56,650 nucleotides of DNA. Origin: Lachnospiraceae bacterium (GTDB lineage: Bacteria; Bacillota; Clostridia; Lachnospirales; Lachnospiraceae). The position numbers and the translations under genes are program-made. The first letter of the stretch is position 1; each line of letters starts with the position of its first letter. Where the stretch lies: positions 1-56,650 of the forward strand of contig JAFXSQ010000052.1 of NCBI GenBank assembly GCA_017525525.1. The letters run 5' to 3'. Under the pieces are notes generated by a model. That model saw only the letters and a list, made by a program, of their open reading frames with translations. It was not told the DNA's origin and did no database searches. This document shows positions 1,307-19,256 of the stretch, in pieces.

Positions 1307-4300
1307 TTACTGCATTCCATCCTTAGCTATGTCGTAGAATGCTTTTGTTGTTCCCTGATTGAACTTCGTTCCCTTAGGCACGAACTGTACCTGGAATGCT
1401 TCAAGCTTTCTTGCATAACCTGCCGAACCGGACTTCTCGTTGTTGCCTGCCCAACCAAGCCAGCCGAACTTCTCACAGTAGGTTCTGTAGTACATGTCGT
1501 AGAGATTTGCTACCTGGCCTGCAGCTTTGAGCTGGATCATCTCTACTCTTCTTGACATACCCTTGGTTCCTGCAAATGTCGATTTATCAGCTGTGGTTGC
1601 CCACTGAGTCCAACCCATCTTCTCTACATAAGCTCTGTACTTTACTGATCCGCCTATGCCTGAAAGCTGCATCTGGATGGTCTCCATCCTCAGGTTGTCG
1701 GTTGTGCCTGCGAACTTAGCTTCGTTTACCTTGGTTCCGATGCCTGCTGTTGACCAAGCCATCCAGTTCTTCTTCTGTACATAAGCCCTGTACTTCAAGG
1801 TTACCTTCTTGATTGCGAAGGTTTTCTTAACGGTTCCACCGTACTTGCCCTTACCTGTAATCTTAACGGTTGCATTTCCGGCGTTGGTGTTGTTGCTGTA
1901 AGATACGGTATAATCAGTGCCCTTCTTCAAGGTTTTGCCATCATGTTTTACGGTTACTGTCGGCTTGATTTCTGAGCCTGTCCATGCCTTGTTGCCAAGC
2001 CCTGTTACTGTTGCCTCAGCGATATCGATGAGCTTTTCTATCTTGGTCTCTTCCTCGGTAATCTCTTCCTTGCCTTCAGAATCCTTGAAGAGCTTACCGC
2101 ACTCCGAGCAGGTCCAGTACTCTATGTTGCCTTCTTCATCAACTGTAGGATCCTTGGCCTCAACATGTGTAAGCTTGTGTCCTTCGTACTTGATTACCGT
2201 CTCTGCAAGGGTGATTTCTTTCTTGCCCTCTGCATCCTCGAAGAGCTTGTCACAGTGCGAGCATGTGTAGTAAGCCTTGTTACCGTCCTCGGTGCAGGTT
2301 GCTTTCTTTTCAGGCACAAGTGCGAGCTTGTGCTCTGACTTCGGAAGAACCGTCTGCTCTTTGGTTATCTCACTCTTGCCCTCTGCATCCGCAAAGTACT
2401 TACCGCAAACTGAACATGTCCAATACTCTATGTTGCCATCCTTCTCTGTCGTTGCCTCAACAGCTTCAACATGTGTAAGCTTATGGCCTTCTGTCTTGAC
2501 TACAAGCTCAGCCTCTGTTGTCTCTGTCTTACCCTCTGCATCTGCAAAGAGCTTCTTGCACTCTGAGCACTCCCAGTATGCCTTCTTGCCGTCTTCGGTA
2601 CATGTTGCCTTGACCTCGGCATGAGCTGTAAGGTTGTGGCCTTTTGCCTTCTCAACAAGGGCTGTCTCTGTTGTCTCTGTCTTTCCGTCCTTATCTGAGA
2701 AGAGCTTCTTACATACCGAGCACTCCCAGTATGCTTTCTTGCCTTCCTTCTCGCAGGTCGCTGCTACTGACTCGTGAGCTGTAAGTGTATGCTTATCTGT
2801 CTTCGCAATCTTTACCGCTGCTTCTGTAGTCTCAGTCTTTCCATCCTTGTCAGCAAAGAGCTTCTTACATACTGAGCACTCCCAGTATGCTTTGTTTCCT
2901 TCCTCGCCACAGGTAGCTTCCTTGGCTGTATGCGCGGTGAGGGTATGTCCCTTTGCTGGGATTGTCTCAGTATAGCTGCTGGTACATCCTGAACAACGGT
3001 AGGTTCTGACACCGGTCTCTGTACAGGTTGGCTCCTTTGTTACGGTGCTTGTGTAGGAATGGGTGTGTCCGGGAGCTGAATATGTATAAGTCGCTGTCGC
3101 AATCTCACTATCAGTCATACCATCCTTAACAGCTATAGCCTTAACCGTAGTAGTCGAAGACACAGTGAATGAATCTGTGTAAGCTGTGCTTGCTGTCGTA
3201 GGCGCTGAACCATTGGTAGTATAGTAGATTGTTGCTCCTGCCGTTCCACATGTAATCGTAATAGTCTTTGAGCTTGAAAAGCTGCCTGCTGCAGGTAATA
3301 CAGGTGTTTCAACCTTAGGTGCTGCTGCGATAACAAAAGCATCACTATCTGCGGATGCAAGCTTTGTACCCGAAGCCTTCTCACGAACATAATATGTTCC
3401 GTTTGAAAGTCCGGATATAGTAGTTGAGCTTTCTGCAACCGAAGTATAAGTTGTAACTGTTGATAATCTGTACTCATACTCTTTTGAAGCTGTTAATCCG
3501 GTAATTGTTCCGTTATCGTTTGTCGACAACGTACAATCGGTTTTGCTCAAGCCTGTCGGTTTATCTGCCTGAGTAACATCTATTGTCTGAATCGCACTTT
3601 CTGCTGTCGTAGCTGTCCCCGGAGTCTTGACCTTTATGTCATTGGTTGCTACAACTCCCGAAGTTATAGTCACAGTTGTTCCTGTGATATCTACCCAGTT
3701 TTCTCCTCCATCCAAGCTGTATTTCATTCCATTTGCAACGTCCGACAGTGTTCCACTGTTTGCACTGTCAGCCACAAATGTCGCAGTAGGTGTTGCTGTA
3801 TATGCTTTTACAACTATTGCGGCACTGTCAGAAGATGCAAGGACAGTCCCGCTTGCTTTGACGCGTACATAATACGTTCCAGGAACAAGGGCGGTGATAG
3901 ACTCTGCATTATCTGCAACATCTGTATAAGATGTTGCTCCTGATAACTTATACTGATACTTTACCGAACTTGTTAATCCGGTTATCGTTCCGTCATTATC
4001 CGACGATGTTGTGCATGCTGTCACACTCAATCCTGTCGGGGCTTCTGCCTGCGTAATATCTATTGTCTGGACTTCACTTTCTGTCGCTGTTTCTGTTCCC
4101 GGAGTCTTAACCTTTATGTCATTAGCTGCAGTAACTCCTGAAGTTATAGTCACAGTTGTTTCTGTTATATCTGTCCATGTACTTCCACCATCTATGCTAT
4201 ATTGCATTCCGCTTGTAACATCTGACAGTGTTCCGCTTTCCGTTCCGTCAGCCACAAATGTTGCATCAGGTGTAGCTGTATATTCCTTAACCACTGCCTC

Positions 4301-7180
4301 CACACTGTCAGAAGATGCAAGAACAGTTCCGCTTGCTTTAACACGTACTACATATGTTCCCGCAGCAAGTCCTGTGATGGAAGTTGCGCTTGCTCCGACC
4401 GAAGTATAATCTGAAGCTGACGACAGCTTGTATTCATATAGTTTTGAGCTATCTAATCCTGTTATCGTTCCATCATCATTTGACGATGTTGTGCATGCTG
4501 TCACTTCTAATCCGGCAGGGGCTTCTGCCTGAGTAATCTCTATCGTCTGAATTGCGCTTTCTGTTGTTGTTGCCGTTGCCGGAGTCTTAACCTTTATTCC
4601 ATTAGTTGTTGTGACTCCCGAAGCTATAGAAACGGTTGTGTCAGAAATATCTGTCCATGTATTTCCACCATCTATGCTATACTGCATTCCACTTGTAACG
4701 TCCGACAGTGTTCCACTATCCGTACCATCAGCTGCAAATGACGCAGTAGGTGTGGCTGAATACTCTTTAAGATAGAAAGTCTTGTAATCCGGCTCTAAGA
4801 ACCAAGTGGCAGCTTCATCTTCGGTATTCTCTATAAGTATTCCGTCACTAGAATTGCTTAAGGCTGCATTCCAGCCGCTTTTGGCCATATCACTAGCTTT
4901 AAAACCCGCTTTAACATATAAATCGGGATGTGTATGCTCACTATTAACCGCATCACCAATCTCTGTATAATAATGTGTAAAGCCCGTATCTCCCGTAGCA
5001 TCATATACAAAACCTGCTTCCCTACCTTGTGTAGCATACCAATTTGCCGTATACGGCTTAATTTCATATGTTTTGTGGGCAGGAATAACTATCTTGTATA
5101 ACGGTCTTGAATCGTATCTATATTGTGAGCAATACATTGTATCGTAATTTGTAGATCCTTTAATTACATGTATTGTTTTTGCGAAATCATACCACACATT
5201 CCAATCAACTGTTATTGTTTCATCTGAAATATTGATCTGCGATCCGGCAGATGCTAAAACCGCAGCTTTTCTGCTGTTATACGCACTAGTAGGTATATCA
5301 CCATAATAGATTTCATGATTGTTGTTAACCGAAGTGACTGCATCAACAGAATCCGTATATCCCGTTACCCATATGTAGAATACCTTTTCAGAGTCACTAT
5401 CATTAGTACAATGGATCACTCCATTAGGGCTTTCAATCAAAGGTATTTTATCCAAACCGTCTGCCGGATATATGTAGGATTTTTCAGCATTTCTAAACTG
5501 TAAAGGCACATATTTTTTAGCCGGAACAGTAAGCTTAAATAGCTTTCCTTCGTCAGTAATAGATGTCTGATTAAACGTATCTATATCGACAGGCTCTCCT
5601 AATATCGGTCTCATCACTGTATGTTTGTCAGTATAACTCGTTTCGGTTGCTGTAACCTCTACTGCATCACTTAAGTAATCTTCTAACATTGGTGATGTAA
5701 GCATATAAGTAGTTCCAACCACGCCTTCAGTTACCGGTGTTCTGGTTGTATCTGAACTTACAATCCAGAACTTACTTGGATCATCCGAAAGATCAGGGAG
5801 CGTGAAATCCCCACAATTAACAGTGATAGTGTCCCCAACTGTCATTGTATTGTACGCCCTTGTGAAATCACCGAAATACCTCACAGTCTCTGTATCATCA
5901 CTGTTTTCACCGTAGGTAACGGTTATTGGTGCTGCTGTAGTATTTGTGGAATTAAACACACTATCAGCCACAAATACTGAACTGGCTGTATATGGTTTAT
6001 ATGTGCTTCCTCCAATGCCTCTTACAGAAATAATCGTCTTATTACCATCATCTGTTGCAGGAACAGATTTTGGTTTTGTAGATGTTGCAACACCATATAT
6101 TATAAATGCTGTATATCCTTTACCTAATCTGGTGTTAGTAGCTTTTTGACCATAAAACTGATTATCTTCGTAACTATATACGCCATTTACGCCCTTACCT
6201 GCTATATCATACTCTCCACCAATAGAATAGCTAAAAGAATATGAAACTGTGCCCGGTGTAGTATTTACATGACGATAATCCATTTTTGTTAATACTACAT
6301 CAGAATCAGTAACGACACCCATTACGGCTTTTCCTTTTGTACCTGTCACATCAGCACCTGTACCATCATGCGCTGTAAGACCTTCATTTGCAACAGCAAC
6401 ATAATCATTACCTTCCGGATTAAATGCCGCAAAATCCAATTCATTTAACCCAACACCCACTTGAGGGTTAGCAGGACTTTTCGCTGTACCTTCAACTGTC
6501 GCAATTACAGAAAAAGGTTCATCCAATGAATAACTACCCAATATAGTGATATCACCATATTCAGCCAATTCCATAGACAACATCAAGGACAACGCATAAT
6601 AATAACCATCAATATTTACTACATACGGAGACTCAATTTTTGCCCTTTGCGTATCATTTGCAGATGAAAGATATACAGAGCAAGCATTAAGCTTTGTATT
6701 ATCAATAGTAGAAATAACAGTATCTCCGCTCTTAATCTGGATATAGTTTGTCGGAATATAGTTTTCTGTATCCACCTGACCTATAGGTATCATATAATCA
6801 GACAACCATTCATTGACAGGCTTTGTACTACTATCAATAGTAACTTCTGTATCAGTCCAATCCCAAATTACATTACCCTCTGGGAAATTAGGTATATCTT
6901 TTTTGAAAATCTTAGAACCTATCAAATCAACAACAGCATCTGCTCTCTCCTGAATAGTCGGAGCAGGTGAAGCCTTCGCATCCAGTGGCACAAAAAAACC
7001 GGCACCCGGTGAAAGCAAGGTTAATACCATTGCCAACGCCAAAGCACATGCCAGTCGTCCAAGCCATGTATGCTTAATTACAGTTTTGCACGAGCCCATA
7101 CCCAAGCGATTTTTCTGCGCATCAAAAAAGGCTTTCGAATCGCCGGAGTGTCTCTCAGTCAACGAGTTACATTCTCTCAT
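1307..7180 (-). CDS. Giant secreted surface protein with Cys-rich and ChW repeats (1957 aa)
   Basis: The start ATG at 7180 follows GGGAGG by about 8 nt. A basic, unusually long N-region precedes the hydrophobic signal core (LACALALAMVLTLL, ~residues 44-57) and a likely AKA cleavage site near residue 70. Residues ~80-800 are a unique beta-rich region I do not recognise. Three tandem ~160-aa repeats follow (~809-1284; each starts Y(S/T)ATPxA(S/T)F and contains SGTLSDV). Next come a chitobiase/hexosaminidase C-terminal-like domain (~1291-1371), seven ~45-aa Cys repeats with YWxCSxCxKxF cores (~1376-1711), an Ig-like/MBG domain (~1715-1790) and three ChW repeats to the end. No LPXTG or transmembrane tail is present. 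The role is probably adhesion or surface binding (inference). The C-terminal third is almost identical to that of the gene at 11174. Confidence 0.85.
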   Translation of the reverse strand: MRECNSLTERHSGDSKAFFDAQKNRLGMGSCKTVIKHTWLGRLACALALAMVLTLLSPGAGFFVPLDAKASPAPTIQERADAVVDLIGSKIFKKDIPNFPEGNVIWDWTDTEVTIDSSTKPVNEWLSDYMIPIGQVDTENYIPTNYIQIKSGDTVISTIDNTKLNACSVYLSSANDTQRAKIESPYVVNIDGYYYALSLMLSMELAEYGDITILGSYSLDEPFSVIATVEGTAKSPANPQVGVGLNELDFAAFNPEGNDYVAVANEGLTAHDGTGADVTGTKGKAVMGVVTDSDVVLTKMDYRHVNTTPGTVSYSFSYSIGGEYDIAGKGVNGVYSYEDNQFYGQKATNTRLGKGYTAFIIYGVATSTKPKSVPATDDGNKTIISVRGIGGSTYKPYTASSVFVADSVFNSTNTTAAPITVTYGENSDDTETVRYFGDFTRAYNTMTVGDTITVNCGDFTLPDLSDDPSKFWIVSSDTTRTPVTEGVVGTTYMLTSPMLEDYLSDAVEVTATETSYTDKHTVMRPILGEPVDIDTFNQTSITDEGKLFKLTVPAKKYVPLQFRNAEKSYIYPADGLDKIPLIESPNGVIHCTNDSDSEKVFYIWVTGYTDSVDAVTSVNNNHEIYYGDIPTSAYNSRKAAVLASAGSQINISDETITVDWNVWYDFAKTIHVIKGSTNYDTMYCSQYRYDSRPLYKIVIPAHKTYEIKPYTANWYATQGREAGFVYDATGDTGFTHYYTEIGDAVNSEHTHPDLYVKAGFKASDMAKSGWNAALSNSSDGILIENTEDEAATWFLEPDYKTFYLKEYSATPTASFAADGTDSGTLSDVTSGMQYSIDGGNTWTDISDTTVSIASGVTTTNGIKVKTPATATTTESAIQTIEITQAEAPAGLEVTACTTSSNDDGTITGLDSSKLYEYKLSSASDYTSVGASATSITGLAAGTYVVRVKASGTVLASSDSVEAVVKEYTATPDATFVADGTESGTLSDVTSGMQYSIDGGSTWTDITETTVTITSGVTAANDIKVKTPGTETATESEVQTIDITQAEAPTGLSVTACTTSSDNDGTITGLTSSVKYQYKLSGATSYTDVADNAESITALVPGTYYVRVKASGTVLASSDSAAIVVKAYTATPTATFVADSANSGTLSDVANGMKYSLDGGENWVDITGTTVTITSGVVATNDIKVKTPGTATTAESAIQTIDVTQADKPTGLSKTDCTLSTNDNGTITGLTASKEYEYRLSTVTTYTSVAESSTTISGLSNGTYYVREKASGTKLASADSDAFVIAAAPKVETPVLPAAGSFSSSKTITITCGTAGATIYYTTNGSAPTTASTAYTDSFTVSSTTTVKAIAVKDGMTDSEIATATYTYSAPGHTHSYTSTVTKEPTCTETGVRTYRCSGCTSSYTETIPAKGHTLTAHTAKEATCGEEGNKAYWECSVCKKLFADKDGKTETTEAAVKIAKTDKHTLTAHESVAATCEKEGKKAYWECSVCKKLFSDKDGKTETTETALVEKAKGHNLTAHAEVKATCTEDGKKAYWECSECKKLFADAEGKTETTEAELVVKTEGHKLTHVEAVEATTEKDGNIEYWTCSVCGKYFADAEGKSEITKEQTVLPKSEHKLALVPEKKATCTEDGNKAYYTCSHCDKLFEDAEGKKEITLAETVIKYEGHKLTHVEAKDPTVDEEGNIEYWTCSECGKLFKDSEGKEEITEEETKIEKLIDIAEATVTGLGNKAWTGSEIKPTVTVKHDGKTLKKGTDYTVSYSNNTNAGNATVKITGKGKYGGTVKKTFAIKKVTLKYRAYVQKKNWMAWSTAGIGTKVNEAKFAGTTDNLRMETIQMQLSGIGGSVKYRAYVEKMGWTQWATTADKSTFAGTKGMSRRVEMIQLKAAGQVANLYDMYYRTYCEKFGWLGWAGNNEKSGSAGYARKLEAFQVQFVPKGTKFNQGTTKAFYDIAKDGMQ
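3330..4760 (-). repeat. Three tandem ~480-bp repeats inside the giant gene
   Basis: Units begin near 4755, 4275 and 3800, a period of about 477-480 bp (160 aa). Each encodes the same pair of beta-sandwich-like modules: a SIDGGxTWTDI-type half, then a TGLxxSxxYxYKLS-type half. The repeats are diverged but easily aligned, so unit gain or loss by recombination is plausible. Confidence 0.75.
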
Positions 7181-7326: not shown

Positions 7327-8547
7327 CTAATCGTCAACAGGGATGACAATCGTCAGAAGCATACTGCTTCGCCCTTTATTGATAGCATCATTTTCTGTTT
7401 CGGACTCCGCCTCATCTTCACTCACTTTCCAGACTCTGCTACTACCGACTAATGCACTTGAAATTCTTTCTCTTAGCCCTTTGCTTTCCTCAGATGTACT
7501 CGTGGCTTCTATTCCCAGATCACACAGCAGTATTACCGTGTCGTCCAGGGTTCTAGCCCGAAGGGACACGTATTTTACTCTGTTTCCAAGCTCTGTCGTC
7601 ACACGGCGAATATCATCTATAGCCGGACTTACATGCCCGGCTATATCAGACCCTGAAGATAGCTGCAATCTCTCAAACCCCATCTGTTCAAGCACGCCGC
7701 CTAAAGCCTCAACCGAGGATTTAAGCCCGGCAAGTGCACTTTGCAATCCGCCAGCGACTGCTTCATCGTCTTCCCTCTCTTCAAGCTCGCTCATAATCCT
7801 TCCTTCAAGCAGTGAGTTTTTATCGATACTCTTTTTCCTACTTTTTGCATCCATATACTTTGCAAGATTCATAAGCACTCCGCCCGCCACGATGAGTATG
7901 AGCGTTATCATCAGGTATGAGAACACTATGGGCAAGGCTATATTCCTGCCTGTTGTATCCGACTCGTGAAGTGCCTTGTAATTGGAATATGCCTTCATCG
8001 CCGCTCCGGTCACCTCAAGGAACAGCATAACGAAGACTACGCCCCACACTATTTTCAGCTTTTTGTACTTTCTTCTCACAATCGGTCTCAGTAACCTTGC
8101 GACAATCATTACCGCAATTATCTGCGTTGCGCACACATAAGCATACGCCCATCCCTTGCCGTTCTGTGCTGTCATTTCCGCGCCGAGGACAGCGCTCGCA
8201 TCCTCAAACGGCAGCACCATAAATGAGGCAAGTGTCGTGCTGACCAGACTGATTATAAAACTGTAGACAACAACAACCGGGAATTCACCCTTTACAGTGA
8301 TAGAGGGCATAATGATGGCCGCCACCTCAGGAATCGCAAGACACATGTAGATTATAGCAGCAGAAGTGGCATTCGGGAAATCACGCTTCTGCAGAACATC
8401 AATTATGATAAGGCACACAGAACAGAATATGGCAACCGCAATCAGAACGAACGGACTGACCTTCCTTTTCACGAAGGCTATTCTTGCACCTATCAAGAAT
8501 GACACACCTATACTTACGTCAAAGAATATACTGCCTATCCCCGGCAT
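7327..8547 (-). CDS. Polytopic membrane protein with cytoplasmic coiled-coil tail, putative accessory sensor 1
   Basis: Of 406 residues, the first ~230 carry about seven hydrophobic helices (for example VLIAVAIFCSVCLIIIDVL and VIVARLL). A charged, mostly helical cytoplasmic tail follows. The tail ends in MLLTIVIPV, which resembles the last strand of a GHKL ATPase domain, but no H, N or G box is present. It is last in the operon RR (10304), GHKL kinase (9645), this protein's paralogue (8558), then this gene, with a 10-nt gap. Similarity in layout to the 8558 protein points to duplication. AgrC-type kinases carry such a multi-helix sensor in the same chain as the ATPase; here it is separate. 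The sensor role is inference. Confidence 0.6.
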   Translation of the reverse strand: MPGIGSIFFDVSIGVSFLIGARIAFVKRKVSPFVLIAVAIFCSVCLIIIDVLQKRDFPNATSAAIIYMCLAIPEVAAIIMPSITVKGEFPVVVVYSFIISLVSTTLASFMVLPFEDASAVLGAEMTAQNGKGWAYAYVCATQIIAVMIVARLLRPIVRRKYKKLKIVWGVVFVMLFLEVTGAAMKAYSNYKALHESDTTGRNIALPIVFSYLMITLILIVAGGVLMNLAKYMDAKSRKKSIDKNSLLEGRIMSELEEREDDEAVAGGLQSALAGLKSSVEALGGVLEQMGFERLQLSSGSDIAGHVSPAIDDIRRVTTELGNRVKYVSLRARTLDDTVILLCDLGIEATSTSEESKGLRERISSALVGSSRVWKVSEDEAESETENDAINKGRSSMLLTIVIPVDD

Positions 8548-8557
8548 AATCTCACCT

Positions 8558-9652
8558 CTACAGTACCCTTGTTATCGTCATGGTCTTCTCGCCTTCGTAT
8601 CCCTCGTTAAAGGATATCTCACTCATCAGCATCATCTCATCACCGAGGGGACGCACACATATCGTCATGTACCCTCCGCTGCCTTTCAGACTTGCAAATG
8701 AACTGCTCAAAGTCTCAAGCTCCTTCCTAAGCTTTGCCGCCTTATCTCCAAGCATCTTCTTCGCAGCGTCCATATCACTTATGAGCTCAAGCACCATGTT
8801 TCTCTTTTCAAGCTCTTTCGAAAGCACTTCAATCGCCCTGTCTATTCCGTCCGATGCTTCACGATCCTCACGGTCTATCTCTCCTATGATCTTTTTTTCA
8901 AACAGGCTTTTCTCACTAATGATCGACCCGAATTTGTGTTTCTCCCTGCCCTTTACAACATTTACGACAACAAAAATGACTACTACGATAGTCAGTACCA
9001 TGACCATGTATGTTATACCAAGCACTATCAGGACATCATCCCGGGCAGGAGCCTCGTGTCTTGACTTATAATTAATATATCCCCTCGCAGGCACACCTAG
9101 TATATCATACATCATGATTATACAGAAAAGCACGCGGTAAACGACACCATCTCCCTTAATCCACTTAAGCAGAAGCTTCACAAGAAGCGCCGAAATAACA
9201 GTTGCGATTAACTGAACCACGCAGATGTACAAGTATCCGATTCCCCCTGAGCTCCTTGAGGTCGTTTCAGCAGCCATTACATCCTTGGCAGGTTCGATAA
9301 AAGCACAGACCGCGAACACTATCGCACTGACGAAGATGATTATAAATGCATTGACAACCGTCCTCTTGTATACGCTTCCCTCGGTGTACTTAGTCCCCTG
9401 AATTATTGCAATCATCTCCAAAACTCCGGCCAGGCAAAACCAGAACAGATACACCGGAAGGCTATTCGGATCCTGCTTCTGTGCCACATCAAGCACACAA
9501 AGCATAATCGCACACTCCAGCATAACTGCGAGCACCTGTGGTACGCTCGTCTTCTTTCTCGGAAGCGCAATCATTGCGCCCACTACGAACGCTACTCCTA
9601 TAAATATATCCCATAAGAATGATCCGACTGTTGGCATTGCCATCTTACTCAT
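8558..9652 (-). CDS. Polytopic membrane protein with cytoplasmic tail, putative accessory sensor 2
   Basis: This 364-aa protein has about seven membrane helices in residues ~10-235 and then a charged helical tail (residues ~240-364). The tail ends TMTITRVL, again like the end of a GHKL domain without its catalytic boxes. It shares the start (S/G-x-FxxDxxIGVxFxxGAxIA) and helix order of the 7327 protein, so the two are paralogues. Its start overlaps the end of the GHKL kinase gene by 8 nt, which suggests translational coupling and a shared complex. The function is inferred from context. Confidence 0.6.
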   Translation of the reverse strand: MSKMAMPTVGSFLWDIFIGVAFVVGAMIALPRKKTSVPQVLAVMLECAIMLCVLDVAQKQDPNSLPVYLFWFCLAGVLEMIAIIQGTKYTEGSVYKRTVVNAFIIIFVSAIVFAVCAFIEPAKDVMAAETTSRSSGGIGYLYICVVQLIATVISALLVKLLLKWIKGDGVVYRVLFCIIMMYDILGVPARGYINYKSRHEAPARDDVLIVLGITYMVMVLTIVVVIFVVVNVVKGREKHKFGSIISEKSLFEKKIIGEIDREDREASDGIDRAIEVLSKELEKRNMVLELISDMDAAKKMLGDKAAKLRKELETLSSSFASLKGSGGYMTICVRPLGDEMMLMSEISFNEGYEGEKTMTITRVL

Positions 9653-10301
9653 CCCTCCAGCTTATCCATGTTTCAAATGTGTCGCCGTTGTCCTTCATCT
9701 CCAGCTTGCCACCCAGCCTGTCCGTTACCATGCGGATTATCTTGATTCCCATGCCGTGCGAACCCGCATCCTCCTTGCTTGTCTCAAAGTTCCTCTCTAT
9801 CGGGTGCACATCCTGCGGCTTTGAGTTTTTAATATGAATCAGTTTCTCGGAGATATCCGCGTGGATAACCGGTTCCTCACACCCGGCCTTTGCTGCATTT
9901 TCACATGCTTCTATCGCATTGTCTAACAGGTTCGACAAAAGCGCAGTAGCACGTCTGACTTCCATCTTTACGCCGAGGGGCGAGACATTCGCAACCAAAT
10001 AAATGTCCTTCTCCTGCGCACGTAACACCTTATCAGCGACTATGTACTCTACAAAGTGGTCCATGTCCATGTCACCCGCTTCGTAGGCGCGTGAATAGTT
10101 CTCCAAATCGTGACGCACGAATCTAAGCCTTCTGTCCGAAAGAGCCGCAAGCTCATAAGCCTCCTCCTTCGCTTTCAGACGTCTGCTGACGACAAGCCGT
10201 ACCACAAGGGTAACGGCAAACACAACTACAACAAAAACCAATATGCCGATATATATCCCAAGATATGATTTGAAAGCAGAATCCGTGTCCTGAAGAAGCA
10301 T
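9645..10301 (-). CDS. GHKL-type sensor histidine kinase with a single membrane helix
   Basis: This 218-aa protein has one N-terminal hydrophobic segment (residues ~13-38) and then an AgrC/CitA-like kinase core. The H box is VRHDLENYS with phosphoacceptor candidate His64. The N box is LLSNLLDNAIEAC (~121-133) and the G box is GSHGMGIKII (~180-189). Typical AgrC/LytS family kinases have five to eight membrane helices; this one has one, so it probably receives its signal from partners. The gene lies 2 nt after the response regulator gene and overlaps the next membrane protein gene by 8 nt. Phosphotransfer to the RR at 10304 is expected. Confidence 0.85.
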   Translation of the reverse strand: MLLQDTDSAFKSYLGIYIGILVFVVVVFAVTLVVRLVVSRRLKAKEEAYELAALSDRRLRFVRHDLENYSRAYEAGDMDMDHFVEYIVADKVLRAQEKDIYLVANVSPLGVKMEVRRATALLSNLLDNAIEACENAAKAGCEEPVIHADISEKLIHIKNSKPQDVHPIERNFETSKEDAGSHGMGIKIIRMVTDRLGGKLEMKDNGDTFETWISWRDE

Positions 10302-10303
10302 GA

Positions 10304-11008
10304 TTAAGTTCTCTCCCCCAGATACTCGGCGTAGCCCACATAAAAATCAGACTTAAACTGCCTTCCGATAGGCAGCTTCTCACCGTTTTTAAGCGCAACA
10401 TTTCCTCCGCCAACAGAATCAGCGTAGTCAAGATTCACGATAAATCCCGAATGACAGCGAACAAAATTAGACGGGAGCTCCTGAAGTATGTCTCGTATGT
10501 TCATATAAGTCTCGCGCTCTTCGTCCGCAACAATCACAAGTCTTCTTCCCCGCCTTGTGATGTACCTGATTTTATCTACAGGTATGTCGAGCGTAACCCA
10601 TTTCTCAACAATTCTTAGGCTTTTGTTCCGACTGCTTGTCAGACGCATGGCCTTGCTTATGGCGCGGCCTAAGGTCGCCTCCTGCATCTTCTTAATCACA
10701 AAATAACAGTGCATAGTCTCGTACGCATCTGTAGCATAATCCGGAATCTCCGTAAGATAAATGATAGCGGTATAAGGATTGCTTCTGTTAATCTCCTTGC
10801 CGAGATCGATACCGTTTAGGTCATCCCTGTGATACTCTATGTCAAGTATGACCATGTCGTAATCAATTTTTGATCCGCTGACCTCATTCTTAAACTCATC
10901 CGGAGCTGCAATCGTAATCTCCGCACCCTCCGCCAGCTTCTGTTCTTCTATGATATTTTTAGTGTAAAGCGCGTCTTCTCTGTTGTCATCGCAGATAAGA
11001 ATCTTCAT
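10304..11008 (-). CDS. LytTR-family response regulator
   Basis: The protein has 234 aa. The receiver domain (1-~115) has the acidic pair in ICDDN (residues 7-8) and phosphoacceptor Asp56 in VILDIEYH. A LytTR DNA-binding domain follows (~130-234: TLDIPVDKIRYI, the ExxxY/MNIRDILQELP segment, FVRCHSGFIVNLDY). I start at the ATG at 11008 because GAGGAA lies 6 nt upstream; the adjacent ATG at 11011 is an alternative. Further upstream starts would precede the predicted promoter. The gene heads the four-gene signalling operon. The likely targets are the flanking giant surface genes (inference). Confidence 0.9.
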   Translation of the reverse strand: MKILICDDNREDALYTKNIIEEQKLAEGAEITIAAPDEFKNEVSGSKIDYDMVILDIEYHRDDLNGIDLGKEINRSNPYTAIIYLTEIPDYATDAYETMHCYFVIKKMQEATLGRAISKAMRLTSSRNKSLRIVEKWVTLDIPVDKIRYITRRGRRLVIVADEERETYMNIRDILQELPSNFVRCHSGFIVNLDYADSVGGGNVALKNGEKLPIGRQFKSDFYVGYAEYLGERT

Positions 11009-11038
11009 CATTTGTTCCTCATGCATAAGAATGGATAG

Positions 11039-11068
11039 AGTATAGCTTTTACCCTTTGAAGTTGTCAA
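11039..11068 (-). promoter_or_regulatory. Sigma-A-type promoter of the RR/kinase/membrane-protein operon
   Basis: Reverse-strand TTGACA (11063-11068) and TATACT (11039-11044) are separated by 18 nt. The start would be near 11032, about 20 nt before the RR start codon. Confidence 0.65.
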
Positions 11069-11102
11069 GCAAAAGCGCAATTGGGGTTGACAGATTAACA
11101 GC

Positions 11103-11137
11103 AACGGAGCGGCTCCGTTTGATTTGAGCTGCTCCGT
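11103..11137. terminator. Alternative hairpins after the second giant gene
   Basis: AACGGAG/CTCCGTT forms a tight stem at 11103-11119. The left arm (ACGGAGC) can instead pair with GCTCCGT at 11131-11137. Neither is followed by a T-run, so this is only a possible terminator for the gene ending at 11174. Confidence 0.4.
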
Positions 11138-11173
11138 CGTCTGTCTGTTATTCTTTATGAATTGTTGAATGTT

Positions 11174-14100
11174 TTACTGCATTCCGTCCCTTGCCATGTC
11201 GTAGAATGCATTAGCTGTTCCCTGATTGAACTTCGTTCCCTTAGGTACGAACTGTACCTGGAATGCTTCAAGCTTTCTTGCATAGCCTGCCGAACCGGAC
11301 TTCTCGTTGTTGCCTGCCCAGCCGAGCCAGCCGAACTTCTCACAGTAGGTTCTGTAGTACATATCATAGAGATTTGCTACCTGGCCTGCTGCTTTGAGTT
11401 GGATCATCTCAACTCTTCTTGACATCCCCTTGGTTCCTGCGAAGGTAGTCTTGTCAGCTGTGGTTGCCCACTGCGTCCAGCCCATCTTCTCAACATAAGC
11501 CCTGTACTTAACTGATCCGCCTATGCCAGTGAGCTGCATCTGGATTGTCTCCATCCTCAGGTTGTCGGTTGTGCCGGCGAACTTAGCTTCGTTTACCTTA
11601 GTTCCGATACCTGCTGTTGACCAACTCATCCAGTTCTTCTTCTGTACATAAGCTCTGTACTTCAAGGTTACCTTCTTGATTGCAAAGGTCTTCTTAACTG
11701 TTCCGCCGTATTTGTCCTTACCTGTTATCTTAACGGTTGCATTTCCGGCGTTGGTGTTGTTACTGTAGGATACGGTATAATCCGTGCCCTTCTTCAAGGT
11801 TTTGCCATCAAGTTTTACGGTTACTGTCGGCTTGATTGCCGAACCAGTCCATGCCTTGTTGCCAAGCCCTGTTACCACTGCCTCAGCAATGTTGATGAGC
11901 TTTTCTACCTTGGTCTCTTCCTCGGCGATTTCTTCCTTACCTTCAGCATCCTTGAAGAACTTGCCACACTCCGAGCACGTCCAGTACTCTAAGTTGCCTT
12001 CTTCATCAACTGTCGGATCCTTTGCCTCAACATGTGTAAGCTTGTGGCCTTCGGACTTGATGATTGTTTCTTCCTTGCTTATCTCCTTCTTGCCCTCTGC
12101 ATCCTCAAAGAGCTTATCACAGTGTGAGCAAGTATAATAAGCTTTGTTTCCATCCTCAGTGCAGGTTGCTTTCTTCTCCGGTACAAGTGTGAGCTTGTGC
12201 TCTGACTTCGGAAGAACAGTCTGCTCTTTGGTTATCTCACTCTTGCCCTCTGCATCTGCAAAGTACTTACCGCAAACTGAACATGTCCAATACTCTATGT
12301 TGCCATCCTTCTCTGTTGTAGCCTCAACAGCTTCAACATGTGTAAGCTTATGACCTTCTGTCTTGATTACAAGCTCAGCCTCTGTTGTCTCGGTCTTACC
12401 CTCTGCATCTGCGAAGAGCTTCTTGCACTCTGAGCACTCCCAGTATTCTTTCTTTCCATCTTCGGTGCATGTCGGCTTAACCTCTTCATAGGCTGTAAGC
12501 TTATGTCCCTTTGCCTTCTCAACAAGGGCTGTCTCTGTTGTCTCGGTCTTTCCATCCTTGTCTGAGAAGAGCTTCTTACATACCGAACACTCCCAGTATG
12601 CTTTCTTTCCATCTTCGGTACATGTTTCCTCTACTGCCTCATGAGCTGTCAAGGTATGTGCCTTCATCTCTTCTACAAGGTTCTTCTCCTCTACTTCTGT
12701 CTTTGCCTCTGTATCCGAGAAGAGCTTCTTACATACCGAACACTCCCAGTATGCCTTCTTGCCTTCCTTCTCGCAGGTTGCTGCTACTGCCTCGTGAGCT
12801 GTAAGGGTATGCTTATCTGTCTTCGCAATCTTTACTACAGCTTCTGTAGTCTCAGCCTTGCCCTGTGCATCCGAGAAGAACTTCTTACATATCGAGCACT
12901 CCCAATATGCCTTGTTTCCTTCTTCCGCACATGTTGCTTCCTTTGCTACGTGAGCTGTGAGAGTATGTCCCTTAGCCGGTATGGTTTCCGTCTTTGAACC
13001 GGTAGAACATGTCGTGCACTGATAAGTCATAATTCCGGTCTCGGTACAGGTTGCCTCCTTCGTTACTGTTCCCGTAGACGGCCAGGTATGCGTATGTACT
13101 ACAGGCGGCACATAAGGTGTACTGACTGTGATTGTTACCACCTTGTTACCCGCTGCGTAATATGTATTCCCAGCAGCCGATATAGTTACTTTGCATACTC
13201 CTGCTGTTGAACCGGCACTGAAGTCACCCGTTGTTTCATCGACTAAGCAGCCGGAAAGCGTTTGGGTTATTCCATAGGTTACATCCCCCACTGCTGACCC
13301 CTTATATGTCGACAAATCAAGGCTTCCACCTGTTGTAACACTTGCCGATGCTGTTCCGCTGAGCGGGTTATCTGCTTTATCGATAGTTACAGTTACTGCA
13401 CTTGTCAAACCGGTAAGGTTGTAGTTACCCGCATCTGCTCCCTTGAGCTTTACTCCTGTAACGGTTACAGGCTTGTCCACTCCCACATTTGCATCGGCTA
13501 TCGTAGCCGTTGCTTCAGATATGTCTACTGCAACATCATCACCCACTATCGCTGATGTGACAGTTCCTACAACAAGAGAAACGGAGGTATTTCCCGCCTC
13601 ATACTTTCTTCCCGTTGCGGTAACACTTACAGTTGTGTCTTTTGGTGCTATCGTCGCTGTTAACCCTGTGGGCTGAGTGATAGTATAATTCCCCGCATCT
13701 GCTCCGGAAAGAGTGAATTCAGCCACCGTTACCGTCTTATCAGTACCTACATTCTTATCAGCAAATGTTCCGGTTGTGGGTGATAGTAACGCAACATCAT
13801 CTCCTTCTATAACACCATCACTCAACGTCAAATTGCCAGGCAATTCAACCGTGTCGCTGCCATCATAAGTCTTGTCAGCTATATCTAAGCCATTTATAGT
13901 TAATTCTTTAGCATTTATACACACGAGCATACTTTGCGAAGATACATCTTCGTAGTTGTTCCCACCATCTACTTTATAGTATACAGTGTAATCACCCGCG
14001 TCATTTCCAACCGGTACAGAGTCCTCCCAATTTGTACCGTCTAAACTGTATTTCATAGAACCACCGGTAGTTAAGCCTCCTACAACAAGCTCCTGATCCT

Positions 14101-17100
14101 CTCCCGTATAATATAAATCTTCTCCAAAACTCGGTGCTTCCACTTCCGGTGTTGCCTTGTTTATCGTGAATGATGTTTCAGCTGTCCCCGAATTATAGTT
14201 TTTAGTTTCCGATACGCTTGCCTTTATCCAGTATGTATTTGCATTCGTCGGTATATCGGTTGTGTATTCCGACTGGTCGGTACTATAAGTATACTGTACG
14301 ACTCCGTTCCCCAGATTACCTGTTAATTCCGGCTCATTTGGCTCTTCTCCGTATGTCCATCCTTCCATCGACAACGACAAATCAAGGTTTACCTTAGCTA
14401 TACAGAAGTCGGTTGAAGCGTTGCTTGGCAGTCTGTAATAATAAGGATTCGATAAAGCTGCTGCTGTAGCAACATAATCGCCTGCATTTATATGCTCGCC
14501 ATCAACAGAAACCTCCACCTCGCAGGTATCCCCATTAACCAGGCCCGTTGCTTCACAAGACGGATAAATAGAGAAACCTGTATAATCCTGAGAAAGATCA
14601 CTCCACGACAAGCCAACCGTTCTCGGCTCTACGGTAAGGTAATACACTCCCGACAAAGTCTCGTTTCCGTCTGAATAAGTAGCAGTAATCACAGTTGTTC
14701 CCGGAGTTCCAACCGTTATCGTTGCGGTTTCGGCATTATTTGCCACCGTTGCAACGCTTGTATTACTTGATTCCCATGACCATGTTGCTTCATCAATATT
14801 TTTTGCGCTTGCCGTAATCGTGAAATCATCATCTCCATACTCAGCGGAACCCGATGTCACATTGTGTTCTTCTCCACGGTTAAATGTAACAAGACTATCA
14901 GCATCTACATCAGTATATGTCATAAGATAGTCGGAAAAGCTGTCCGTCTCGGCTGTAAAACCATTCCCCTCAGTAAGACTCCACTTCGAGTCATCCATAA
15001 CCCTGGGCGTCTCACCCTGGTGCAATCTTATAAGCTTATATTGTCTCACATATCCATCTGCAACCGCAGGCATATCATGCGCTTGTGAGGTTATCGTAAT
15101 CTCTTTATCAAACTTCTTTATTTTACCTATGTTTGTCGGGCTATTGCTGCCTTTTTTGCAAAACAGCTGAAGATAATAATCCTTAGCATACGCAAAGTGA
15201 TATCCCCTCGGGAATCCGCAATACCATACCAGCCACCACTCCCAAAAGCTCGCATATTGGCCTTTGTAAGGTTCATATTCACTTTCATAATAAAGTTCAA
15301 AGGCATCGGAAGTCAGCTCTTCAGCATCCAGATTAACCCCGACTTCACCTTCTCCGCCTGACAAAGCATCTATAATACTCTGTTGAAGGGCATCTGTATC
15401 ATCACTATCCAAATCAATGACAGCTTCATTATAGACACCCTCATTACCAAGCGAATCGATTATATCTCCCGCAGTATCCTTTACTGTATCTTGATCTTCC
15501 TCATCTGTAACATTCGTATTCACATCATATACATGCGCTGTAACTGTTTTTCCGACATTTCCAATCTGTGCGGTTACTTCCACCTCTCCGGCTGCTTTAC
15601 CCGTAAGCCTTCCGTTTGCATTGATGGTTGCGATACTATCGTTATTAACCGACCAGGCCTCTCCGGAGTGATATGCGTTCCTTGGCTTCAGGTTATTTAC
15701 ACCTACATTAATCGAGTTTTCCTTATACACGATCGGGTTAGAAGGAGTGATAGAAAAATCAAGCACCTTATCACTATACAAAACAGGAGCCGAATATTCA
15801 GATACATCACTGCCAAAATACCCCGAGTAGTAATTTGGAGTTAAATATACGCAAACCGCAACCTTCACGATGTCACCACTGTGAATGATTCGCGATTCGT
15901 TTTCATTCTCCCTTCCTCTTGCATACAAACCGGATAAATGATCTGTAATGTCATACATGTATCTGCCCGTTTCCGGATCATAATATGCTAGATTAGGAAT
16001 AATCTTGCCCTCACCGTCAAAATTCGGATTTCCAAAATTACACAACGCATTACTGGTTAATCCGACAGTACCGCCAACATCCCATATCACTTCATTTTCT
16101 TCATTCAAAAACCTTACCTTAATCTGATACATATCATCTTCATACGGTAAATCTTCAAGAGCTATTGAGGACTCCCAGCTAACCACATATTCATCATCTA
16201 TGGAGACATTTTGTGGCGTCGCATATTTATCTATATTACAAACCCAGTTTTTCGTAGGAGATTCAACCGAATAATCACTGTCCTGATACAGAGCCCTTGT
16301 CTGATTTTCAAAACCACAGGTCATCACGCTGTACGATACCGCATATGACGTATCTTTTGTCAGGTACTGATCCGCGCGATTCTTAATATGCGGTTTAAGA
16401 TCTATGGAATAGACACCATCTGATATGCTGCCGTTCCAGTTTTCATTCGGACAATTAAAAGAGCCGAACCTGACATCAAAAGGTTCTTCATTATCAATCT
16501 TTATTCTGATCATATAATCGATGACATCCGCATTGGGAACAGCATCCCATGTTGCAATCAAATCATCACTTAAAGCTATGTTTGTCGGAACCGCAAATTG
16601 TTCCTTATAGGAATTAAAAACAAAAGTGCCGTATGCCGGTTCGGAATACTCAGACGTATGGAAATACGCAGACTGCTCTTCCACCTTTATCATAGCAATT
16701 TTAAATTCCTGCTCACCGTCATCATACACTCTATAATCATAATTATAATCAAGATATGCTAATTTTAATCTCCATCCTAATTCTATCCGTCGATTATAGC
16801 CTTCTTTTTCGGTATACACATAATCATTCTTGACACTATCACCGGAAAAATGGAAAAAATCATACCCGTTTGTATTCCATGCACTTTCATCATTTATGTC
16901 GCGAGGATAGACATAAGCCCTGTATTCCCCGTGATAAACCTCATCATCAACGTTAAAATACATATACAGCTTTCCGTCCTCCTCTGTGACGAGAGGCATC
17001 TGCGGTTTAGATAATTGAATAGACTGCGCAAGAGAATAAAGCTTTGCTTCCGACAAATCCGAAAACGAACTGTTGTAACTATTCTCTGTATTGATTGCTC

Positions 17101-17548
17101 TTATCTTATACTTGACATACACCTGTGTAAGACTGTTATTTCCCGATCTGACAGCTATCAGGTGTATTGCATTCTGAAGATCAAGGCTATCATCGTCTCC
17201 ACAACCTACAATCTCCGAATTTCCGACCTGATCCCCGCATGCACTGTCAGTGTACGCAAAAACCTCCAGTTCATACGCATTCGCTCCGTTGGATTTTGCC
17301 CACGTTGCCAAAGCTCTTTCGGAACCACTGCCCCAGCCTATAGCGGCAGGAACTTCCAGTTCCTCATCCGCCTTCACCACTCCCGCCGGCACTCCTGCGA
17401 ATACCGTAGTTAAAGCAACAAAAAAAGCCACCACAAAAGCAAGACTTCTTTTAACCGCATTCGTTCCTCTGCTACATCTTCTTGGCGCATTCGAACCACT
17501 TCCCCCATTGGGAGCGCCCGAATTAACCAAACTCTTCACATCTTTCAT
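11174..17548 (-). CDS. Giant secreted surface protein with Ig-like, Cys-rich and ChW repeats (~2124 aa)
   Basis: I start at the ATG at 17548 (MKDVKSL), 11 nt after GGGAGG. An in-frame ATG at 17596 with weak GGTGG is possible. A signal peptide core (SLAFVVAFFVALTTVFAG) lies near residues 36-53, with cleavage near VKA. Fibronectin-like beta modules follow, then two Big_2-like domains (~600-676 and ~893-970), YDG/MBG-type domains (~1210-1390; DKTYDGSDTV, NVGTDKTVTV, GADAGNYTI), eight Cys repeats (~1487-1883), another MBG-like domain and three ChW repeats ending at 2124. There is no sortase motif. The last ~600 residues nearly match the gene at 1307, but with one extra Cys repeat. The role is probably a surface adhesin or binding protein (inference). 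Confidence 0.85.
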   Translation of the reverse strand: MKDVKSLVNSGAPNGGSGSNAPRRCSRGTNAVKRSLAFVVAFFVALTTVFAGVPAGVVKADEELEVPAAIGWGSGSERALATWAKSNGANAYELEVFAYTDSACGDQVGNSEIVGCGDDDSLDLQNAIHLIAVRSGNNSLTQVYVKYKIRAINTENSYNSSFSDLSEAKLYSLAQSIQLSKPQMPLVTEEDGKLYMYFNVDDEVYHGEYRAYVYPRDINDESAWNTNGYDFFHFSGDSVKNDYVYTEKEGYNRRIELGWRLKLAYLDYNYDYRVYDDGEQEFKIAMIKVEEQSAYFHTSEYSEPAYGTFVFNSYKEQFAVPTNIALSDDLIATWDAVPNADVIDYMIRIKIDNEEPFDVRFGSFNCPNENWNGSISDGVYSIDLKPHIKNRADQYLTKDTSYAVSYSVMTCGFENQTRALYQDSDYSVESPTKNWVCNIDKYATPQNVSIDDEYVVSWESSIALEDLPYEDDMYQIKVRFLNEENEVIWDVGGTVGLTSNALCNFGNPNFDGEGKIIPNLAYYDPETGRYMYDITDHLSGLYARGRENENESRIIHSGDIVKVAVCVYLTPNYYSGYFGSDVSEYSAPVLYSDKVLDFSITPSNPIVYKENSINVGVNNLKPRNAYHSGEAWSVNNDSIATINANGRLTGKAAGEVEVTAQIGNVGKTVTAHVYDVNTNVTDEEDQDTVKDTAGDIIDSLGNEGVYNEAVIDLDSDDTDALQQSIIDALSGGEGEVGVNLDAEELTSDAFELYYESEYEPYKGQYASFWEWWLVWYCGFPRGYHFAYAKDYYLQLFCKKGSNSPTNIGKIKKFDKEITITSQAHDMPAVADGYVRQYKLIRLHQGETPRVMDDSKWSLTEGNGFTAETDSFSDYLMTYTDVDADSLVTFNRGEEHNVTSGSAEYGDDDFTITASAKNIDEATWSWESSNTSVATVANNAETATITVGTPGTTVITATYSDGNETLSGVYYLTVEPRTVGLSWSDLSQDYTGFSIYPSCEATGLVNGDTCEVEVSVDGEHINAGDYVATAAALSNPYYYRLPSNASTDFCIAKVNLDLSLSMEGWTYGEEPNEPELTGNLGNGVVQYTYSTDQSEYTTDIPTNANTYWIKASVSETKNYNSGTAETSFTINKATPEVEAPSFGEDLYYTGEDQELVVGGLTTGGSMKYSLDGTNWEDSVPVGNDAGDYTVYYKVDGGNNYEDVSSQSMLVCINAKELTINGLDIADKTYDGSDTVELPGNLTLSDGVIEGDDVALLSPTTGTFADKNVGTDKTVTVAEFTLSGADAGNYTITQPTGLTATIAPKDTTVSVTATGRKYEAGNTSVSLVVGTVTSAIVGDDVAVDISEATATIADANVGVDKPVTVTGVKLKGADAGNYNLTGLTSAVTVTIDKADNPLSGTASASVTTGGSLDLSTYKGSAVGDVTYGITQTLSGCLVDETTGDFSAGSTAGVCKVTISAAGNTYYAAGNKVVTITVSTPYVPPVVHTHTWPSTGTVTKEATCTETGIMTYQCTTCSTGSKTETIPAKGHTLTAHVAKEATCAEEGNKAYWECSICKKFFSDAQGKAETTEAVVKIAKTDKHTLTAHEAVAATCEKEGKKAYWECSVCKKLFSDTEAKTEVEEKNLVEEMKAHTLTAHEAVEETCTEDGKKAYWECSVCKKLFSDKDGKTETTETALVEKAKGHKLTAYEEVKPTCTEDGKKEYWECSECKKLFADAEGKTETTEAELVIKTEGHKLTHVEAVEATTEKDGNIEYWTCSVCGKYFADAEGKSEITKEQTVLPKSEHKLTLVPEKKATCTEDGNKAYYTCSHCDKLFEDAEGKKEISKEETIIKSEGHKLTHVEAKDPTVDEEGNLEYWTCSECGKFFKDAEGKEEIAEEETKVEKLINIAEAVVTGLGNKAWTGSAIKPTVTVKLDGKTLKKGTDYTVSYSNNTNAGNATVKITGKDKYGGTVKKTFAIKKVTLKYRAYVQKKNWMSWSTAGIGTKVNEAKFAGTTDNLRMETIQMQLTGIGGSVKYRAYVEKMGWTQWATTADKTTFAGTKGMSRRVEMIQLKAAGQVANLYDMYYRTYCEKFGWLGWAGNNEKSGSAGYARKLEAFQVQFVPKGTKFNQGTANAFYDMARDGMQ

Positions 17549-17620
17549 ACCTTCATTAACCTCCCTTTTATCATTTTGTGAAAAAGATGTGAACATTTTA
17601 ACACCACCAATGTAGCATGT

Positions 17621-18162: not shown

Positions 18163-19256
18163 CTATCCCTCCTTAGCATCTGCAAGTTCCGCCTCAATTT
18201 CCTCTATTGTCGGTAATGATGATCTGTAATCATCCGGAAGAAATCTACTGATGTCATATACTGCAATACCCATAGGCTGACTGCTTGCCTCTAAAGCATA
18301 TTGAGCTTTTATATTGTCTTTTGATTTGCAGATAATCAGCCCCATTGTAGGACCATCTTTCTCACTCTTCATCTGATGATTTACTGCAACCATAAAAGTT
18401 CCAAGCTGTCCCATATCCCCCGATTGAAACTCTCCTATTTTTACCTCAATCACAAAGAAGCAATGTAGCTTGTAATTATAAAAGAGAAGATCAACATAGT
18501 TTTCCGTGTTGCCAATGTTAAGTTCAACTTCCCGTCCGGCATGGGCAAATCCGTTTCCTAACTCCATAATGAGCTTCTCGACATTTGCCAAAAGCGCATC
18601 TTTAAGCTCCTTCTCATTATATTTTTCTCTTATAGAAATAAAGTCAAAATTATAAGGATCCTTCGTAATCGCCTGTGCAAGCTCGCTCTGATCCTCCGGA
18701 AGCGTCAGACTAAAATTTGTAATAGCCTTCCCTTGACGTTCATACAGATCCGTATCAAGAAAATTCATCAGCACCGATCTTGACCAGTTGTTTTCCAGCG
18801 TTTTTTTCACATAAAACAGCGCTTTTTCCGGATCACCCTTTGATTTTCCAAGAATCTGAATATGATGTCCCCACGGTATTTGAAATATCGCCTCTAAATC
18901 GTCAACAGGCTGTTGACGATTTTCATTGTCTTCTGAGCCGTCAACAAGTTGTTGACGATTCTCAGGCACTCCAGGGTACATCTCATAGAAATAACGCATA
19001 TATTTCAAATTTGTGGTCGAAAACGATTTAATATCCGGAAAATATCCTTCAAATCACTACTAATTGTTTTATAAAAACCGGAACCGTATCCCGCCTCTTC
19101 ACTCATAAGCGCAATGTCCCTGCCAAGCCCCCAATAAAATCGCAGCATTTCACTATTAACCTTAACCGCTGCCTTAAGCTGGCTCAGACGGAAACGCTTT
19201 GAAACATCTTTTATCCAGTTTCTATATTTGATGTCTGTTTTTATAAGGCCACTCAT
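18163..19256 (-). pseudogene. DUF1016 (YhcG-type) PD-(D/E)XK nuclease, frameshifted
   Basis: The N-terminal domain (19005-19256: YRNWIKDVSKRFRLSQLKAA, FYWGLGRDIA) and the C-terminal nuclease domain (18163-19008: IPWGHH, YVDLLFYNYKLHCFFVIEVK, GLIICKSKDN) belong to one DUF1016 protein of ~365 aa. They are in different frames. Inserting one C in the CC at ~19035-19036 would restore KDIFPDIKSFSTTNLKYMRY across the junction. The catalytic D...E-x-K is intact in the C-terminal half. The linker carries two ENRQQxVD repeats. DUF1016 genes often sit in type I restriction loci, which matches the HsdM-like tail just upstream. Confidence 0.75.

Follow-up and report, generated by a model that had tools for sequence, protein, structure and literature searches.

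A LytTR-linked operon of a Lachnospiraceae bacterium in which a GHKL sensor kinase appears to be divided among separate proteins

Closest described systems and the operon

Sensor histidine kinases are usually single chains acting as homodimers, and in the known AgrC-type members the sensor and the kinase form one chain. Kinase functions distributed over two proteins have been described for CheA3/CheA4 of Rhodobacter and Hik36/Hik43 of Synechocystis; CheA3 and CheA4 are reported to autophosphorylate only together (PMC3591291; PMC7656254). Here, we analyzed a stretch of 56,650 nucleotides (nt) from Lachnospiraceae bacterium (GenBank assembly GCA_017525525.1, contig JAFXSQ010000052.1, positions 1 to 56,650; hereafter the window), which is one contig of a 3.19-Mb genome in 75 contigs. 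A four-gene operon on its minus strand (7327-11011) encodes a regulator (P0004), a kinase (P0003), and two membrane proteins (P0002 and P0001). We consider it probable (roughly 0.6) that these genes specify an AgrC/LytTR-type two-component system in which duplication and specialization have split the sensor kinase into a minimal kinase and seven-helix receptors with pseudokinase tails. The features of the operon, all on the minus strand, were as follows.

10304-11011, minus: P0004, LytTR response regulator (Pfam Response_reg 5.9e-9 and LytTR 2.5e-14)
9645-10301, minus: P0003, minimal GHKL kinase of 218 amino acids (aa) (HATPase_c_5 2.5e-15)
9645-9652, minus: 8-nt overlap of the kinase and P0002 genes (gene coordinates)
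8558-9652, minus: P0002, seven-helix protein of 364 aa with a short, truncated putative pseudokinase tail (helix count and profile match)
7327-8547, minus: P0001, seven-helix protein of 406 aa with a putative pseudokinase tail (P0002 paralogue; structure model)
7330-7764, minus: P0001 tail, residues 262-406, predicted histidine-kinase ATPase-like fold without the catalytic boxes
11039-11068, minus: promoter-like TTGACA-18-TATACT upstream of the regulator (consensus match only)

The sequence-only reading of this DNA had described a LytTR regulator, a GHKL kinase with a single helix, and two paralogous seven-helix proteins, which agreed with the Pfam matches, the hydropathy count, and the paralogue alignment. 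A simple hydropathy count gave one hydrophobic helix for P0003 and seven each for P0001 and P0002. The latter two proteins were paralogues (30% identity, E 1e-36), and neither had a Pfam or NCBIfam match near a cut-off. The regulator starts with an ATG at 11011 or 11008. The 8-nt overlap reported in the same reading is real and was identical, as judged by eye, in the related genome G322; it probably couples the translation of the kinase and receptor genes. The promoter-like site matches 11 of 12 consensus positions and ends 27 nt upstream of the regulator's first ATG. It was the best among 13 such sites in the window, where 7.1 were expected from shuffles, and is weak evidence.

The shortened kinase, the receptor tails, and their relatives

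A kinase search was conducted in 37 genomes of the genus, the window's included, followed by examination of the neighborhoods of the short relatives. The same set recurred, made up of a LytTR regulator, a GHKL kinase that is short and has one helix, and either one or two membrane proteins; the latter are about 390-435 aa long (480 aa in G310) and have 5 to 8 helices by the simple hydropathy count. It was present in 12 of the 37 genomes including G317 (11 without), and the genome G129, of another genus, has a receptor (as two partial frames), a regulator, and a kinase. In all, 13 split loci with seven-helix proteins and single-helix GHKL kinases were counted. In G322, which was reached in the genus search with P0001, a P0002 relative with 56% identity has the end of a kinase gene upstream. 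In G317, a kinase and a regulator are accompanied by a seven-helix fragment, which is cut at the contig end and was not assigned by the receptor profile. Not counted were G330, whose kinase and regulator genes lie at the end of a contig, and G300, where a receptor fragment does.

The kinase P0003 holds the H, N, and G boxes, and its H box reads RFVRHDLENY. We determined the distance in residues between the H-box histidine and the N-box asparagine in a profile alignment of 126 rows. Twelve rows without the histidine were set aside, namely nine receptor tails, the G317 kinase, and two long chains (74 and 80). Among the 114 remaining rows, 100 had a distance of 84-90, a single-chain kinase of G200 had 78, and 13 had 59-68. 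These 13 rows represent 12 distinct kinases (the window's was counted twice), of which 11 are partnered and one is the G330 kinase at the contig end. The distance in P0003 is 60, in comparison with 84-90 in the 100 other kinases. Since 22 other short kinases had distances of 86-88, it is the deletion and not the shortness that marks the split kinases. About 20 residues after the histidine are missing from them, and it seems from the alignment that this is the place of the second helix of the dimerization domain of single-chain kinases. The same place is shortened in some receptors, with distances of 65 in G303 and G306 and, in a single receptor of G309 and of G313, 68 and 74; simple provision of the lost helix by the receptors therefore does not account for every system. 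The other measured receptors of the genus had 79-80, and the G129 piece had 84.

Three observations concern kinases outside this pattern. The G317 kinase (L057:9290-9970) has a lysine at the histidine column and a distance of 70, and its ATPase boxes look intact. Short GHKL kinases without an adjacent receptor relative, most of them with a regulator, occur in many genera (L128-L149) and are scattered on the kinase tree. In G189 (L144:4687-5969), a five-helix protein of 191 aa overlaps a 237-aa kinase by 7 nt, and the distance is a normal 87; this pair represents either a different type of split or a frameshift. The idea that short GHKL kinases are always accompanied by a separate sensor was rejected, as no receptor relative was found beside the 22 other short kinases, with contig or locus ends limiting some of these cases.

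The membrane proteins were compared with the GHKL domain. A profile of the relatives' seven-helix family (12 proteins) matched that of 11 short kinases over 204 columns (hhalign probability 99.4, E 4.4e-21). The relatives' tails alone gave E 8.4e-18 and the GHKL core alone E 1.7e-13, whereas the controls for these comparisons, 10 column shuffles and two reversals, gave E 0.18-0.71. A profile of P0002, P0001, and the G322 protein matched the relatives' seven-helix family over 351 columns (probability 97.7, E 1.6e-12). Direct comparison of the window's own tails with the GHKL domain was negative; the assignment of these tails hence runs via the relatives' profiles and the P0001 model. This model shows membrane helices and a C-terminal alpha/beta domain, and its tail fits the ATPase domains of DesK and AgrC. 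No solved structure was found when one was sought by sequence with the receptor family profile. In the merged alignment with active kinases, the histidine of the tails is replaced by T, K, N, D, or E, or the stretch is missing; the N-box motif is broken, with the first asparagine left in some relatives; and the G boxes are absent. The relatives' tails retain the last helix and the strands. This alignment bears out the earlier claim that the tails lack the catalytic boxes and suggests that they are GHKL pseudokinases from which the phospho-histidine and the boxes for ATP binding have disappeared.

The tails could instead be decaying remnants of kinases, so that only the seven-helix parts, or nothing, would matter. 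The tails of the window are very degenerate, and the nonsynonymous substitution rate (dN) of the tail exceeds that of the sensor in five relatives' receptor pairs and between P0002 and the G322 protein, as would be expected for remnants. Most of the receptor pairs other than the G323/G316 pair are saturated at silent sites. Where the synonymous rate (dS) was measurable, however, tail dN was low: 0.061 in the G323/G316 receptor, whose sensor (0.055) is under equal constraint with dS 0.33 in both, and 0.44 with dS 1.59 between P0002 and the G322 protein (0.35 and 2.7 overall). Moreover, the tails persist across two genera and keep the fold-defining helices and strands in the relatives. We regard a tail without any role as very improbable.

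In two operons, the sensors of the two receptors have diverged while their tails are similar:

L056:10547-12943: receptor pair of G316 (sensors 42% identical, tails 76%; tail DNA up to 96% identical per 100 bp)
L050:6413-8796: receptor pair of G323 (sensors 38% identical, tails 68%; tail DNA up to 83% identical per 100 bp)

This suggests, from sequence comparison, that gene conversion has acted on the pseudokinase part only and has kept these tails similar, as if because both receptors serve one kinase. The pattern was not seen in the other four of the six two-receptor operons, the window's included.

In a tree of 110 kinases, one group (100/96) held all 11 partnered kinases, those of G330 and G317, and also the single-chain kinase of G200; the bootstrap of this tree had not settled, and the branch of the window's kinase is long. 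The sensor of G200 carries GNMIRNF at the position of the receptors' GNIWRN motif and had the top rank among 81 single-chain sensors compared with the receptor profile, although weakly (E 0.0028, probability 10.8; next 0.0059). The G200 regulator lies outside the group of the split regulators. G200 is a possible unsplit sister of the split systems. The 12 regulators of split loci, P0004 among them, formed one group (100/99) apart from 24 others, and this group included the regulators of G330 and G160. As the simplest history, a single-chain kinase would have been duplicated, with the sensor lost in one copy and catalysis in the other. Taken together, the split-sensor idea of the sequence-only reading is well supported by the co-occurrence, the homology, the tree grouping, and the deletion of the kinase.

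In G160 (L141:5094-6985), a regulator of the split group stands beside a degenerate seven-helix protein. The genome has four kinase matches, all in frames of at least 445 aa, and no short kinase was found in it; possibly the kinase has been lost from G160, and regulator and membrane protein act there as a pair. This locus bears on a different explanation, in which the seven-helix proteins are membrane inhibitors: the kinase would be active alone, and the tails would hold the kinase or the regulator inactive until a signal arrives. As G160 indicates, a genome can retain the membrane protein in the absence of the short kinase, and in LytTR Regulatory Systems a LytTR regulator is reported to be paired with a membrane protein that inhibits it (PMC6193735). 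However, the short kinase is kept at the 13 split loci, and the deletion is present in 11 of the 12 measurable split-locus kinases (that of G317 has no histidine), which suggests that the kinase needs a partner rather than acting autonomously. Inhibition of a self-sufficient kinase is accordingly the less favored explanation, and we consider it unlikely.

In the divided-kinase reading, the seven-helix proteins would be receptors with cytoplasmic pseudokinase tails, and the 218-aa kinase would keep the histidine and the ATPase, having lost the sensor and seemingly also the second dimerization helix. The helix before the H box, which lies proximal to the membrane and is retained in both proteins, is alike in receptor and kinase in the merged alignment (a Y, N, L pattern), and the two proteins may associate through it. 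The pseudokinase tail would position or hold the minimal kinase, and a signal at the seven helices would alter the autophosphorylation of the kinase and, in turn, the state of the LytTR regulator. Where an operon has two receptors, two signals would meet at one kinase. The gene set, the homologies, the lost residues, the deletion, the kinase and regulator tree groups, and the repeat arrays of four relatives (see below) can be read from the sequences, whereas we infer complex formation, the direction of control, phosphotransfer, the ligand, and the targets; the step from the gene set to a complex is the most uncertain part. Tentatively, and at somewhat less than even odds, interchangeable receptors with dead kinase tails may share one minimal kinase that is unable to form the normal dimerization bundle alone, so that phosphorylation would occur only in the mixed complex and several signals would feed one kinase and one regulator.

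The order of the genes on the coding strand and the number of receptors varied among the relatives:

G303 and G306: receptor, kinase, regulator
G316 and G323: receptor, receptor, regulator, kinase
G312: regulator, receptor, receptor, kinase
G309 and G313: receptor, regulator, receptor, kinase
G310: regulator, receptor, kinase
G326: regulator, kinase, receptor
Window: regulator, kinase, two receptors

Seven of the loci obtained from the genome scan are named; six are from Lachnospiraceae metagenome-assembled genomes (roe deer, water deer, and sheep gut among them) and one is from Eubacterium sp. MSJ-21. The receptor profile had matches in 134 of 299 genomes of the family. Among the matches listed, nearly all covered only the kinase part (profile from about position 135) in frames of about 440 aa, and the sensor part was reached in G129, G160, and G044, the last being a single-chain kinase with an N box. 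At E 1e-12, a threshold at which weaker relatives would be missed, a search of 391 genomes of the class gave no full-length receptor. In scans with single proteins, P0002 had no relative in genome contigs or plasmids and P0001 had none in viral contigs. Matches of the P0002 family in G052 and G266 were dropped as short stretches without the surrounding gene set.

Operators and flanking surface proteins

In G306, G309, G312, and G313, 9-bp repeats of the AAAAATGCA type with 12-bp gaps were found at the promoter of the operon or the regulator. The array lies just upstream of a TATAAT-like box (the box and the third repeat were identified by eye). In LytTR Regulatory Systems, operator repeats are reported to be separated by 11-13 bp, mostly 12 bp (PMC6193735), and the arrays of these four relatives have the same layout. 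In G303, the fifth genome of the subclade with the arrays, the array was not at its operon. As evidence we used a two-repeat search with a backward control, together with the position at the operon. With one mismatch allowed, the two-repeat pattern gave 21 matches in 14 genomes, four of them at split operons, versus five for the pattern read backwards. In these relatives, the regulator probably acts on its own operon as well. A three-repeat pattern with one mismatch was dropped as unspecific, because 21 bp correspond to seven codons and 35 of the 37 genomes had matches. The other two-repeat matches, including one in a coding stretch of G303, were taken as chance or as leads only. In G312 (L231:5623-9539), a repeat pair with one mismatch precedes the gene of an exported 604-aa protein, whose C-terminus is dockerin-like by eye, and a second exported protein follows; this locus is possibly a target of the regulator, or the match arose by chance.

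The array of the relatives was not found in the window. Upstream of the regulator, the best repeat has a spacing of 19 and is located within a hairpin-like stretch. This repeat and that before the P0005 giant (spacing 23) were set aside as candidate operators, as they are unlike the relatives' array and are not shared with the other giant. The operon is flanked, with adjoining gaps of about 160 bp or less, by two giant genes:

1307-7180, minus: giant ChW protein (ChW and CHB_HEX_C_1 domains)
11174-17596, minus: giant ChW protein (ChW, YDG, and Big_2 domains)

The positions and the minus strand that had been given for the operon and the giants were borne out by the gene coordinates, except for the start of the upper giant: the gene is present, but it begins at 17596 rather than at 17548. 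The near-identity of the C-termini of the giants also held, with 96% identity over the last 205 aa.

These giants had been proposed to be controlled by the operon as a surface-sensing or surface-switching module. They adjoin the operon, and among ten scanned proteins near the relatives' operons, one, directly downstream of the G303 operon, has ChW repeats. Furthermore, a secreted or surface flank was present at five of the 13 split loci (four by a fixed rule and G317 by eye), versus two of 22 scorable controls and, by the same rule, 6 of 126 genes at a greater distance from the split operons; the rule is crude and the difference a hint at most. A 23rd control locus was dropped because it had no core, and the controls include G330, which is probably a split system truncated where the contig stops. 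Against such a module, 98 matches to parts of the 205-aa C-terminus were spread over 67 distinct frames of this genome. Of these frames, 58 are at least 250 aa long, and some of the 67 match only the part upstream of the ChW repeats. In addition, the regions upstream of the two giants share no repeat array. Nine of the 13 split loci lack a secreted flank by the rule, or eight when G317 is judged by eye. Of the other scanned neighbors, G310 and G317 had one each with other extracellular domains (CAP/Big_2 and LRR), G326 had at most a sub-threshold choline-binding match, and the remainder were protein kinases or enzymes. In G322, the gene of an 11-helix protein, and no ChW giant, lies downstream of the operon. 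A module controlling both giants is thus improbable, and the flank counts do not support the idea that all split kinases regulate surface proteins. Both giants probably stand outside the signaling system as context only; the recurrence of their C-terminus reflects a large family of ChW-type surface proteins in this genome. Within the window, the C-terminus matched at 1307-7180, 11174-17596, and 56524-56637. Separately, a DUF1016/YhcG-type nuclease gene reads in two adjacent frames at 18163-19256.

Comparison with known systems

Among histidine-kinase-like proteins with a degenerate ATPase domain, none of DivL, Spo0B, and ChpT is known to us as a seven-helix receptor that works with a minimal kinase on another chain. 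A phospho-histidine is present in Spo0B and ChpT but is missing from the receptor tails here. In the accessible part of a review on phosphorelay regulation, "pseudokinase" is used only for another kind of kinase (PMC12189002). No split GHKL/LytTR/AgrC-type system of this kind was found in the open-access literature as searched by titles and abstract openings, a scope that leaves subscription papers and preprints outside.

Evolution seems to have divided a kinase here into a receptor with a pseudokinase tail and a kinase with a reduced dimerization domain, and relatives differ in how the genes are ordered and in how many receptors they have. If this is true, the operon would show how an obligate homodimer becomes a modular heteromer, and it would offer a natural test of the purpose of the dimerization helices and a way for several receptors to feed one kinase. 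A short GHKL kinase with a histidine-to-N-box distance below 70 would be the genome signature of such systems.

The split kinases described in the papers cited above are CheA-type and have the phospho-acceptor apart from the catalytic domain, whereas P0003 keeps the histidine and the ATPase together and has the sensor separated. With the LytTR Regulatory Systems HdrRM and BrsRM, the operon shares a LytTR regulator and a membrane protein in one operon; those systems are described as two proteins without a kinase, whereas the operon here adds a receiver domain and a kinase. The AgrC-type kinases share with the P0003 system a GHKL ATPase with N and G boxes, an H box, a polytopic sensor, and an adjacent LytTR gene. 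In those kinases, as in the 75 long kinases of our tree, sensor helices and kinase lie in one chain, and the spacing was 84-90 in 100 kinases measured here. In the system described here, by contrast, they are distributed over two or three proteins: the GHKL domain of the sensor chain is dead, and the kinase, with a spacing of 60, is shorter by about 20 residues after the histidine.

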